From IMG/VR virus record IMGVR_UViG_3300048999_000056, positions 48,819 to 112,818 of that record: a stretch of 64,000 bases of DNA. One strand, written 5' to 3'. The stretch is from a virus. Below, in pieces: positions 12,438 to 56,146 of the stretch; within the stretch, counting starts at the first letter, position 1; every line of letters starts with the position of its first letter. A program made the position numbers and the translations under genes. Below the pieces are notes generated by a model that was not told the DNA's origin, made no database searches, and saw only the letters and a program-made list of their open reading frames with translations.

Positions 12438-13446
12438 TGCCTGCGCTGACGGGTCGCACCCTGCCGCGCCTAACCGTGTCGGGCGATGCCTGCCAAGCCC
12501 TGACAATCCACGTCTTGCGTTGCCGTGCCGTGCCGGGCCTGCCGGGTCAAGCCGGGACCTTCCGAGCGTTGCGATGCCGCGTCTGCCCCGCCATGACATG
12601 CCTTGCCGTTGCGAGCGTAGCCTTGCCTGCGCTGTCTTGCCGTGACGGACCTAGCCGCGCTCTGCCCTGTCGAGCCTGCCATGCCATGCCCTGACGATCT
12701 ATGCCATCCCGAGCCGAGCCTAGCCAGCCACGTCAAGCCGTGCCTTGACACGTCTTTCCAAGCCTAGCCGAGCCGAGTCTGCGTTGACCTGCCAATCGAT
12801 ACCTCGCCGTGCCAAGCCGCGTCTGCCCTGCCTCGGCCTGCCGAACGATACCATGCCCTGCAGACCCATGCCTGCGATGCCGGAACGTGCCCTGCGCTCT
12901 CGTGCCACGTCACCACGTACCCTGCCTGCGCCGCCTCAACGCGTCCTACCGAGCCAAGCCGAGACAAGCCTGCGATGCGGCGCCTAGCCTCGCCTCGACG
13001 GATGTCGCCTCGCCTAGCCTGCGTTGCCACAACCAGCCCCCCGAGATCAGGCGAACCCAGCGTGTCCAAGCCTGCCACGCGCCGCCCGGACTGCCCTTGC
13101 CTATCGGTGTCGCCCCGAGCCGGCCGCGCCCTGCCTCGCCCAGTCTCGTCCTGCCAGGACGTGCCTTGCCTGCCCCGTCGTGACGTGCCCAGCGCGGCGT
13201 AGCCGAGCCTGCCATGCCATGACCGGTCTAGTCCCGCCTAACCATAGCGGGCCGCGCCTGCCCCGCCATCCGGGCGTCGCCTTGCCGAGCCTTGTCGAAC
13301 CATGCCTGCGACGCCTTGCCACGGCGTTACGCGTCTAGCCGCACCTTGCCGAGCCTGCGACGCGATGCCTTGCCAAGCCACGTCGCAACCCGCCAAGCCT
13401 GCGTTGCCATCCCTCGAATTGCCCAGCCAACGCTAACCCTGCCCTG
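12438..13446. repeat. Degenerate pentanucleotide tract 1 (NNGCC period 5)
   Basis: About 1 kb without credible genes. GCC recurs every five bases on the + strand: from 12676 to 12725, 7 of 10 consecutive in-phase pentamers end in GCC (ctgcc, atgcc, atgcc, atgcc, gagcc, gagcc, tagcc). The phase slips by one base every 50-100 bases. The strand is C-rich, so a leftward transcript would be G-rich (GGCNN). Longer words recur: cgagcctgccatgccatg at 12671 and 13204, and cctgcgttgcca near 13018 and 13398. Open frames inside it are low-complexity by-products of the period. It lies where rightward late and leftward early genes converge. Confidence 0.85.
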
Positions 13447-13456
13447 TACACAAGGC

Positions 13457-13476
13457 GAGGCGGCCGAAGCCGCCCC
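13457..13476. terminator. GC hairpin with UUCG-type loop between convergent units
   Basis: GGCGGC-cgaa-GCCGCC at 13459-13474 reads as a stem with a UUCG loop on the leftward transcript. There is no clear T-run on either side, so it may pause or protect RNA ends more than terminate. It sits 25 bases after the last leftward gene and at the edge of the pentanucleotide tract. Confidence 0.4.
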
Positions 13477-38456: not shown

Positions 38457-39080
38457 GCGCTGCCGCTGCCCGCCCTGCCTTGCCGAACCGGGTCATGCCA
38501 AGCCAGCCCTGCCGGTCCGAGTGCTGCCCTGGCTAGCGTAGACCTGCCACGCCGGCCATGCCCTGCCTTGCCTTCCCGGACGTGCCGAGCGTGGCCTGCC
38601 ATGCCGAGCGTTGACCTATCTTGCCGCCCTGGCCGTTCCGAGCCAAGCCTGCCGATCCGCGTCGATCCGCGCCAAACCTAGCCGCGCCTGCCACGTCTCG
38701 CCACGGCGGGCGGGTCGATGCCATCCCGCGCCATGCCCGCCATGTCAAGCCTTTACGTGCCCTGCCTAGCCGATACGAGCGGTGCCTGCGTTGCCGAACG
38801 TTTGCATGCCCCGTCTAGCCAATACAGGTCGCGCCTGCGTTGCCAAATCGCACCCCGTCTAGCCGACACAAGCCCCGCCTGCGATACCGAGCCATACGCA
38901 GACTGGCCTAGCCGTGCCCTGACGAGCCTGCCCCGATCAGACCTCGTCGGTCCATGCCTAGCCGAGCGCAGCCTGCGTTGACGATCCGCGTCTTGCCCGG
39001 TCAACCCGTGCCATGCCTAGACCACCACGCCTGCCAAGCGTTGCCGATACGAGCGCTTCCTTGCCGGGCCGAGCCGCGCC
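38457..39080. repeat. Degenerate pentanucleotide tract 2 with ~49-base units
   Basis: About 620 bases with the same NNGCC 5-base period and the same strand as tract 1. Within it CTAG recurs at 38766, 38815, 38859, 38908, 38958 and 39017 (steps 49, 44, 49, 50, 59). In the first four units GCCTGC follows at exactly +18 (38784, 38833, 38877, 38926). So there is a higher-order repeat of about 44-50 bases built from the pentamers. No credible gene. It lies between an unrelated small gene and the DNA polymerase gene, with a promoter-like motif at each edge on the minus strand. Confidence 0.85.
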
Positions 39081-39083
39081 TGA

Positions 39084-39112
39084 TTCCTATATACCTATCG
39101 CCTTTTGTTCAA
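39084..39112 (-). promoter_or_regulatory. GTATATA promoter candidate leading into repeat tract 2
   Basis: Minus strand TTGAACAAAAGGCGATAGGTATATAGG overlaps the last codons of the upstream gene (stop 39095-39097). Transcription from it would run straight through repeat tract 2 as a G-rich RNA and on to the polymerase gene. Confidence 0.45.
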
Positions 39113-53044: not shown

Positions 53045-53073
53045 AAAAAAGGCCCGTGTTTACGAGCCTTTTC
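53045..53073 (-). terminator. Rho-independent terminator
   Basis: Minus strand AAAAGGCTCGT-aaac-ACGGGCCTTTTTT, a stem with one mismatch and a T-run, right after the 53097-53657 gene. It separates the control operon from the primase operon. Confidence 0.85.
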
Positions 53074-53096
53074 TGCCCCAGACGTGCGCCGCTCGG

Positions 53097-53670: not shown

Positions 53671-53916
53671 TTACCGGCTGTCCCATATCGCCAGGAGGTC
53701 CGGGCGGTAGGTGAACAGATAGGAACGCAAATCGTCTTCTGTGATCCGTACGCGGCGGGCCTTGCCCAGTTTGCGGTAGATCACCGGCAACGGTGCCCTG
53801 TCGCGCGAACCGCGCCGCCAACCAAGTATCGCCAGCGGTGTCACGTCGAGCGTGCGAGCAATTTCCCGTGATGTAATCGTCGGCACGTTCGATCGCTGGT
53901 GGAGCTGCATTCGCAT
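53671..53916 (-). CDS. Excisionase/MerR-like DNA-binding protein
   Basis: 81 residues; ATG 53916 chosen over 53946 because GGAGGG lies seven bases upstream. ITSREIARTLDVTPLAILGW then RRGSRDRAPLPVIYRKLGKA and RVRITEDDLRSYL is the helix-turn-helix/wing layout of excisionase-type (HTH_17) proteins. Probably a transcription regulator of the adjacent control region. Confidence 0.72.
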   Translation of the reverse strand: MRMQLHQRSNVPTITSREIARTLDVTPLAILGWRRGSRDRAPLPVIYRKLGKARRVRITEDDLRSYLFTYRPDLLAIWDSR

Positions 53917-53995
53917 GGCAAAACCCTCCGGTTTTCGGCGAGGCATATAGCGGTCAGCGGACCAAAGCGCAAGTATCGTTACGTTCTCCCCTATC

Positions 53996-54027
53996 CCTTA
54001 TATACCTTATCGAGCCTCCAACTACCG
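53996..54027 (-). promoter_or_regulatory. GTATATA promoter candidate for 53097-53916 operon
   Basis: Minus strand TTGGAGGCTCGATAAGGTATATAAGGG, about 80 bases before ATG 53916. It points away from the + strand element at 54040-54058, so the two form a divergent pair. Confidence 0.5.
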
Positions 54028-54039
54028 AAACTGCCGAAC

Positions 54040-54066
54040 CGCTGATCGTATATCAGGATCAGAGGC
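54040..54066 (+). promoter_or_regulatory. GTATAT promoter candidate for the 54060-54467 RNA
   Basis: The 21 bases at 54046-54066 match 54126-like element 56126-56146, which precedes the rightward gene at 56174, at 18 positions (tcgtatat, then ggatcagag). Shared sequence with a site that clearly faces a rightward gene suggests rightward transcription here too. Confidence 0.5.
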
Positions 54067-54467
54067 AGGCTGCTTGCATACCGGGATGCAGACCGGTAGA
54101 GCCCTCGAACGGGATGTGGAAAAGCGCCGTGGGAACGGCGGCACATTGCAGGCAAATTCGGCAATCGGTTGGCCTCGCAAGCGAAGCGCTTGAGTTGCGT
54201 TGCTCTCGTGGCAATGCGCTGTTGCGCCGAGCACGGTGGAAAAAGAGGCAAAACCTGACCGGTCGGTTGCGATGGCCGGCAGGGACCGTCATGGCATCTC
54301 AACGGATGCGTCCAACGCTGTAGGTTCGGGCAACCGATCACGGAGCCCTCACAGAATGACCGCCCGTGAACTTCAACCTACAATCGCAGCTGTCGAAGCG
54401 ACGCTGGCTCCATACGTCAGTAATTGCAGTTGACACAATTGGACCGTTTACTCGGTCCAATTGTGTC
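54060..54467 (+). ncRNA. Candidate structured non-coding RNA (~400 nt)
   Basis: No credible gene on either strand. Local stems on the + strand: TGCAT/ATGCA (~54074-54089) competing with ACCGG/CCGGT; CGCCGT-ggga-ACGGCG (~54125-54140, GNRA loop); CAAGCG-aag-CGCTTG (~54178-54192); GCGTTGC/GCAATGC (~54197-54217); GCGC-tgtt-GCGC; TGTAGGTT/AACCTACA (54319-54382) enclosing CGGGC/GCCCG; and the perfect 15-base terminator-like stem 54432-54467. A promoter-like element lies at its left edge. It is antisense to the operon on both sides. No tRNA or group I intron layout was recognised. Confidence 0.5.
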
Positions 54468-54480
54468 TTCTCTCTGCTTC
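54432..54480 (+). terminator. Perfect 15-bp hairpin, terminator of the candidate RNA
   Basis: GACACAATTGGACCG / CGGTCCAATTGTGTC with loop TTTACT, followed by TTCTCTCTGCTTCC. The T-rich side is on the + strand. It could also be an operator, since it is a long perfect dyad beside three DNA-binding-protein genes. Confidence 0.6.
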
Positions 54481-54603
54481 CACCACCGTCAGATCAACTA
54501 AATGGCAATTGAAATTGAAGTTGAAGAGACGAAGATGAAAACTTCGTAGCAGCTGAAATTGACGGATACTGAAAATTGCAGTTGAACACGGTTGGGTTCC
54601 TGA
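54475..54603. other. AT-rich segment with TGAA repeats
   Basis: Markedly AT-richer than its surroundings. ATTGAA-ATTGAA-GTTGAA (54508-54525) is followed by scattered TGAA words and a small stem ACGAAG/CTTCGT (~54528-54548). A 12-base word aattgcagttga occurs at 54422-54433 and again at 54574-54585. No gene. The composition and repeats would suit an operator array or origin-type region near the ParB-like gene; this is speculative. Confidence 0.4.
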
Positions 54604-55113
54604 TTACACTGCTTGGTCTAATTCCTCCTGCAGATATCGAGCTTTTTGTTGAATGTAACTGAGTTCGTAGATGAACATTTCCAACATTGCACGTACTTTT
54701 GGCGTCAGATCATCCATGTAGGGCATGCCTTGTTGTAGCGCGTAGTTTGCGTTGATGGCTTCCGCGCTGAATTTCGACACTCGTGCTCTGACACCTGAGA
54801 GCATTCGGTTGCGCATAGGGCGCAGGATGATCGGCTTCGGTAGGTTGCTGGTTGGTAGCGGCACAATGATGTAGCGCTCGGTGCCAGGAACGAAGTCACG
54901 ACCATGAGGCACGTGCGGAATGGTGAACTCCCAACCGTTGCGCGGGTTACGGATGTAGGTAAGCGCCCAGCTGATCATGCCGGCCGTTATGATCCGTCCT
55001 TTGATGGGCGCTATGCGATTGGCGATCTCCTGGCGTGTCGTTGCGCCTCGTTCGGTGAGGCAGAAATATATCTCGACGCAGAGCTGATAAAGCAGCGTCT
55101 CGCGTTCGGTCAT
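54604..55113 (-). CDS. Winged-helix-like regulator
   Basis: 169 residues; ATGA overlap with the ParB-like gene and GGAGGGA upstream. Residues ~20-90 (TRQEIANRIAPIKGRIITAG, MISWALTYIRNPRNGWEFTI, GTERYIIVPL) look like a winged helix of the type that re-represses early genes; the C-terminus is helical. Probably DNA binding. Confidence 0.62.
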   Translation of the reverse strand: MTERETLLYQLCVEIYFCLTERGATTRQEIANRIAPIKGRIITAGMISWALTYIRNPRNGWEFTIPHVPHGRDFVPGTERYIIVPLPTSNLPKPIILRPMRNRMLSGVRARVSKFSAEAINANYALQQGMPYMDDLTPKVRAMLEMFIYELSYIQQKARYLQEELDQAV

Positions 55114-56048
55114 GGCGTGTTCCCTCCGACAATCTCCAGATGCGGACGCTTGTTTGTTGCGTTGGCTTTGTCGCGCAGCGCCTGGACGATTCGAGAGCAG
55201 GTGTTCTGTAGCTCGATTGCCTGCTCCAGCAATCCTCCGATGTAATTCTGATGCATGCTGTTGACGCTTTCGAGCACGACGTTTTCCAGATGCTCGACGA
55301 TGTTCTGTGCTTCGCCTACGAGATCGCCGGCGGTCAACGCAGCTTCCATACCGGACGGTTGCCGCTGCTCAGGTTCACTGGGCGGTTTGCGCTCGGGTGC
55401 GGGCTGATCTCTGCGAACTGGGGGCGGCGGTTCTGTCCGTGCTCGGGCGATGGTCTGCTTGTGTGCTTTGTTGATACTGATCTTGCCGCTGTGCACTTGC
55501 TCGAAAAGGTCGGATGCCTGGACCTGCACGACTACCAGCTGTTCGTAGGCTTTACGACCTACGCCGAGTTCCTTGGCGATTTCATCACTGGCGCGAGGAT
55601 TTCGTTTCGAAGAAACTTGGGTCCCATTCGCCCCAAGTTTCTTCGGGCGCCCGCCTTTCTTCCGTTGTTTTGCAGCATCCTTTGCCTTCTTGGTGATGGA
55701 GTCTAAGTACTCGGTCATCTTCATGCGTGCGGTTGCGCGTTGCGCCTTGGTGTAGTCCTGACGTTCCTTCTTGGCGTTGATATGGTCTGCGATCTCGACA
55801 TCAGACATTGTCGGCAACGCGACGTAGCGGTGTTCCTGTCCGGCATCGCTGCAGGCTTGATAGCGGTGCCAGCCGTCAACAATACGTCCGTCTGCGGTCA
55901 GCTCGATCGCATCCAGCAGACCCTGCGAGCGTATGCTCTCCACCAGGGCGGTGTAAGCGGCCTTCTGCATGTTGGGCCAGCACAGGGCGGCAGGGTGACG
56001 CTGTTTCGTGTCTCCAGCCGTCCGGGCCGGCTGCTTGGTCCGTGGCAT
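55110..56048 (-). CDS. ParB-like partition/regulatory protein
   Basis: 312 residues; ATG 56048 follows AGGGAGAAT. ParB N-terminal fold: YTALVESIRSQGLLDAIELT, DGRIVDGWHRYQACSDAG, then a helix-turn-helix (ASDEIAKELGVGRKAYEQLV) and a Pro-rich linker with a helical C-terminal dimer region. Phage ParB-like proteins act as nucleases or as regulators; CTP-site residues GWHRYxA are present in part. First gene of the leftward block and divergent from 56174, so it is well placed to control both directions. Confidence 0.82.
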   Translation of the reverse strand: MPRTKQPARTAGDTKQRHPAALCWPNMQKAAYTALVESIRSQGLLDAIELTADGRIVDGWHRYQACSDAGQEHRYVALPTMSDVEIADHINAKKERQDYTKAQRATARMKMTEYLDSITKKAKDAAKQRKKGGRPKKLGANGTQVSSKRNPRASDEIAKELGVGRKAYEQLVVVQVQASDLFEQVHSGKISINKAHKQTIARARTEPPPPVRRDQPAPERKPPSEPEQRQPSGMEAALTAGDLVGEAQNIVEHLENVVLESVNSMHQNYIGGLLEQAIELQNTCSRIVQALRDKANATNKRPHLEIVGGNTP

Positions 56049-56107: not shown

Positions 56108-56146
56108 TTTGTCAATTCGGGTGAATCGTATATATGGATCAGAGCC
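56108..56146 (+). promoter_or_regulatory. Promoter region of rightward operon
   Basis: TTGTCA (56109-56114), then GTATATATGG with GTATAT at 56128-56133; the 56126-56146 bases match 54046-54066 at 18 of 21 positions. ATG 56174 follows with an AGGGGG site. The divergent ParB-like gene must be served by the same 125-base interval. Confidence 0.6.

Follow-up and report, generated by a model that had tools for sequence, protein, structure and literature searches.

The window analysed here, positions 48819-112818 of a 112.8-kb virus record and 64 kb long, carries a set of phage replication genes that includes helicases, SbcCD, DNA polymerase I, a clamp, a primase and ribonucleotide reductase. The polymerase shares about 30% identity with its best annotated relatives, Edwardsiella phage vB_EpM_ZHS and the Vibrio MAR10-like phages, and relatives recovered from IMG/VR show 40-47% identity. 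No nearer relatives than these were found, searches with the proteins neighbouring the locus opened no path to closer ones, and by these comparisons the phage would belong to a lineage with no close sequenced relative. With codon statistics learned from the long genes of the phage, a gap emerges at 53917-54603 (687 nt) that is non-coding on both strands and adjoins a leftward operon, 53946-53097. The features of the gap and its borders are as follows.

53671-53946, minus strand: gene, retained in relatives, for a small protein predicted to have a DNA-binding fold of the MerR/BldC-like type
54000-54005, minus strand: divergent GTATATA box GGTATATAAGGG, 59 nt upstream of the ATG at 53946
54047-54064, plus strand: phage-type promoter-like box CGTATATCAGGATCAGAG, with a -10-like TATATC at 54049-54054
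54056-54475, plus strand: candidate non-coding RNA of about 415 nt, with reversed skew, bounded by the promoter-like box and the terminator
54111-54150, plus strand: GNRA hairpin domain, GCCGU-GGGA-ACGGC inside AUGUG/CACAU
54172-54249, plus strand: predicted four-way junction closed by GCCUC/GAGGC
54318-54382, plus strand: predicted three-way junction with UGUAGGU/ACCUACA as its closing stem and a GCAA tetraloop on one arm
54421-54586, plus strand: cluster of AAATTGNAGTTGAA-like direct repeats (5 of the 16 matches in the window), partly AT-rich, operator- or iteron-like
54432-54475, plus strand: intrinsic-terminator-like hairpin, a perfect 15 bp, with a T-rich tail
54604-55113, minus strand: neighbouring protein gene with a possible winged-helix-like start (low confidence)
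55110-56048, minus strand: gene for a ParB-like protein

A first-pass annotation, made from the sequence alone, had proposed a non-coding RNA at this locus, next to a ParB-like gene and two other genes for DNA-binding proteins. The ParB-like assignment is confirmed by a match to PHROG 12047 (E 6e-14); a DNA-binding role for the other two is more tentative, the predicted MerR/BldC-type fold of the 53671-53946 product having no significant match in the PDB and the 54604-55113 product, for which known relatives were not found, offering its low-confidence winged-helix-like start. At the far end of the 53946-53097 operon, a minus-strand hairpin followed by a T run can be seen by eye at 53046-53075 and is likely the terminator of that operon.

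The same annotation had described the region as free of genes and as a unit running opposite to both flanking genes, and had named a coding signal across it as grounds for refutation. Its orientation is as described, and codon statistics, with which such a signal was sought, reveal none on either strand: open reading frames of at least about 30 codons on both strands of 53947-54603 have codon scores that are about zero or negative, on a scale on which every training gene of the phage is positive, and no Pfam family was found in the three gap reading frames tested.

At its left edge, the candidate is preceded by a box that recurs before another operon of the phage. The pattern CGTATATNNGGATCAGAG occurs with zero mismatches at 54047 and 56127, both on the plus strand and with the same 16 specified bases, and the 56127 copy lies 46 nt upstream of the rightward operon, as the earlier reading of a promoter-like element shared with that operon had suggested. 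The single other match, with two mismatches, falls within a gene; 0.22 matches are expected in all, and three were reached in none of 100 shuffles. Scored with a matrix built from eleven GTATATA-type boxes other than the 54047 and 56127 sites, 56128 comes tenth and 54048 eleventh among approximately 128,000 positions, and shuffled sequence yields 0-1 matches at the same score. Eleven of the top twelve matrix matches are intergenic, nine of these eleven being training members, such that the independent part of the result is the ranks of 54048 and 56128. Boxes of the GTATATA type precede many operons of the phage and are concentrated between genes in several, not all, related phages (11 intergenic and 0 coding in one of them, G008). 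No clear -35 element accompanies the 54047 box, from which transcription would be expected to start near 54060-54062; the divergent box at 54000-54005, judging by its position, probably drives the leftward operon 53946-53097.

The boxes conform to a promoter-like motif that recurs across the phage and reads roughly TTTYGGTATATANNGGATGGC. The motif has a weak or absent -35 element, is intergenic in several related phages, and may reflect a phage-specific sigma factor or a modification of the polymerase. Its sites in the window are:

15325, 18078, 22931, 34886, 38438, 39094, 48948 and 54005, minus strand: TTTYGGTATATANNGGATGGC-type sites
54048, 56128 and 57630, plus strand: TTTYGGTATATANNGGATGGC-type sites

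A 10-mer, GTTSAACACG, is also enriched in the window (35 matches with at most one mismatch vs 8.3 expected), examples being 15338(-), 22946(-), 23891(+) and 54581(+), and some copies lie shortly upstream of a GTATATA box.

At the right edge of the candidate, the perfect 15-base hairpin and T-rich sequence that had been noted earlier are indeed present, as GACACAATTGGACCG-TTTACT-CGGTCCAATTGTGTC at 54432-54467 followed on the plus strand by TTCTCTCT. No other perfect hairpin in the window is as long as this one, which has a fold energy of -25.8 kcal/mol; its T tail is moderate, with five of eight flanking positions being T on the plus side vs one of eight on the other. Between the box and the terminator, the plus strand has a purine fraction of 0.551 and an AT skew of +0.124, opposite in sign to the leftward genes. 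Among 400 equal-length windows over the leftward operon, a comparison whose strictness is limited by overlap between windows and by coding bias, no window has so high a purine fraction, and a single one has so high a skew. The composition of the strand fits a plus-strand product, independently of the motifs.

Because a promoter-like box, a terminator hairpin and plus-strand purine loading coincide, a transcript of about 415 nt from the plus strand, opposite to both neighbours, is likely. The sequence motifs point to a promoter and a terminator of its own, as an autonomous RNA gene would have. That the phage carries such a gene here, non-coding, stand-alone and about 415 nt long, is the reading we consider probable, albeit with a good deal of room for others. 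From the lack of coding, the promoter motif, the terminator and the strand composition, which the sequence supports, we infer transcription, timing, folding and action in trans as follows. RNA polymerase would start at the box at 54047-54064, proceed rightward and stop at the intrinsic terminator at 54432-54475; since the RNA would end before any gene in the same direction, it would reach none and would not be a leader. The RNA would most likely be produced at the same stage of infection as the rightward operon, given the near-identity of its promoter to the one at 56127. The candidate promoter stands back to back with that of the 53671-53946 gene, and the small DNA-binding protein may control both. 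The RNA would most likely act in trans, by folding and binding a protein or RNA, either the phage's or the host's.

How the body of such an RNA would fold is less distinctive than the initial description, of many local stems, might suggest. The whole region including the terminator folds with a z score of -4.0, vs -1.0 to -0.6 when the terminator hairpin is omitted; the body, 54056-54431, at z -0.6 does not fold better than shuffled sequence, and coding windows of the same phage have a mean of -0.5, with one third at or below -1. A region-wide fold signal was rejected, as the terminator hairpin alone accounts for the excess. The fold ensemble has three well-defined elements in the body, and their z scores are optimistic, the elements having been chosen after the fold was viewed: -3.3 for the GNRA hairpin at 54111-54150, only -1.1 for the four-way junction at 54172-54249, and -3.7 for the three-way junction at 54318-54382 (1 of 1000 shuffles, with the opposite strand also at -2.8). 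Pairing probability is about 0.9 at the central pairs of the GNRA hairpin and is high in the four-way junction. The GNRA loop reported earlier thus holds, as GCCGU-GGGA-ACGGC, and is joined by a second, GCAA. The TGTAGGTT/AACCTACA stem, described as long-range, is exact (54319-54326 / 54375-54382), yet with 48 nt between its arms it is not long-range, and it closes the compact three-way junction. A functional fold of the body is possible on this modelling.

Searches for relatives of the RNA were uniformly negative. Rfam gave zero matches to the region at the gathering threshold and at E up to 10; blastn against phages and plasmids gave short chance matches only, at E thresholds as permissive as 1-10; and blastn, nhmmer and single-sequence covariance models found no homologue among IMG/VR relatives, which were fetched via polymerase and primase profiles. 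An nhmmer match in L170 and a blastn match in L180 were rejected, both lying within genes, as were two matches from loop-based pattern scans of IMG/VR and genomes, both within or at the edge of genes. The R1 covariance match at L194:4396-4463, in the same phage record (E 0.001), was judged to be chance; it is antisense within a gene, 18 nt past the gene start, and most of each inner hairpin is missing from it. In relatives that carry a homologue of the 53671-53946 gene, protein genes rather than the RNA lie upstream of that homologue. ARAGORN found no tRNA or tmRNA, and the record has no tRNA.

Abundant RNAs that lack an ORF are known from phages, a precedent in favour of the RNA-gene reading, and the nearest in kind is the most abundant transcript of ICP1, an ORF-less RNA of about 800 nt that lies between gp139 and gp140 (PMC7567579). 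Like the candidate, it occupies an unusually long gap in a phage without tRNA genes; unlike the candidate, which is known from sequence and was compared with it through the phage collection searches, it was shown by RNA-seq and is twice as long. GOLLD and ROOL are likewise phage-encoded and non-coding, with conserved, covarying structures; tRNA islands are often close by, and GOLLD is often longer than 800 nt (PMC12286853). The candidate differs in having no Rfam match, no tRNA genes in its record and a length about half that of GOLLD, which together exclude both RNAs. The inability of the first reading to match the region to GOLLD or ROOL is therefore shared by the covariance models, at E up to 10; of its proposal, the non-coding unit with a phage-type promoter and terminator has good support from the sequence, and the idea of a large, GOLLD- or ROOL-like structured RNA finds none. 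The antisense regulators of P1, P7, N15 and P4 are also small phage RNAs within regulatory regions, and are complementary to gene leaders (PMC7567579). The candidate, in contrast, has no extended leader complementarity, its complementarity to its own genome not going beyond 12-13 nt. Pairing with phage gene starts showed no excess over controls, and an antisense role at these sites was rejected on that ground. The 6S and oop RNAs of lambda lie beside regulatory genes and have their own promoter and intrinsic terminator, 6S being an antitermination leader and oop antisense to coding sequence. The candidate resembles them in its setting, promoter-like box and terminator; it is longer than both, has no same-direction gene just downstream as a 6S-like leader would, and is not antisense to coding sequence as oop is.

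A different view of the locus is that it works as DNA, as a control or partition site to which the ParB-like or the small DNA-binding proteins would bind. Such a site would comprise a divergent promoter/operator, iteron-like repeats and, in the 15-bp inverted repeat, a palindrome for binding, and any transcript would be incidental or would serve to open the site. This reading, which we regard as unlikely, is kept alive because of the adjoining ParB-like gene and the AAATTGNAGTTGAA repeats at 54421-54586, which lie mostly in AT-rich DNA, around and past the hairpin and up to the gene at 54604. The two divergent promoter boxes and a turn in cumulative GC skew near the region would also suit it. 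The body at 54056-54431 is, however, GC-rich with transcript-like purine loading and has no repeat family of its own, and the hairpin is found once in the record and is followed by T on the plus side only.

Because the body shows neither conservation nor fold excess, two further readings retain some probability. In one, rightward transcription and the terminator would act as a transcriptional insulator that stops read-through from the ParB-like operon into the one encoding the small DNA-binding protein, and the body of the RNA would be inert. The position of the region between two leftward operons and read against them, the chance-level fold of the body and the conservation that was not found agree with such a role, but a short terminator would be enough, and 370 nt of purine-loaded non-coding filler would presumably be costly in a phage genome; we consider it improbable. 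In the other, a decayed gene or neutral spacer lies by chance between a promoter and a terminator, which would account for the missing homologue, the lack of excess folding and the absence from related phages, and which the want of a coding trace in any frame or a Pfam family in the three frames tested, together with an intact promoter-like box and a perfect hairpin, makes very improbable indeed.

The same phage carries four further non-coding islands of 0.5-2 kb, composed of degenerate GGCNN pentanucleotides and with stops in all frames:

12438-13460 of the window, minus strand: GGCNN island
38480-39094 of the window, minus strand: GGCNN island
L193:3500-5470, same record, plus strand: GGCNN island
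L194:7829-8335, same record, minus strand: GGCNN island

The spacing from GGC to GGC is mostly 5, 10 or 15, and also 4, 9 or 14, and three of the four islands start a few bases past a GTATATA promoter-like box. The longest has no phage match, and none occurs in the relatives fetched. Their look is unusual, and they are arguably stranger than the candidate RNA.

By itself, the candidate RNA gene, best described as an orphan among phage non-coding RNAs, overturns nothing. Its promoter motif and terminator, with the codon statistics and the composition of the strand, jointly point to an RNA gene that has no homologue, and the promoter box of this lineage is now described. A more ambitious proposal, doubtful but not far-fetched, is that the candidate represents a new compact class of phage RNA, with four-way and three-way junctions and GNRA loops, that would be made together with the rightward operon and act in trans in take-over of the host. 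RNAs of unclear role are made in abundance by phages, and are overlooked by gene finders.
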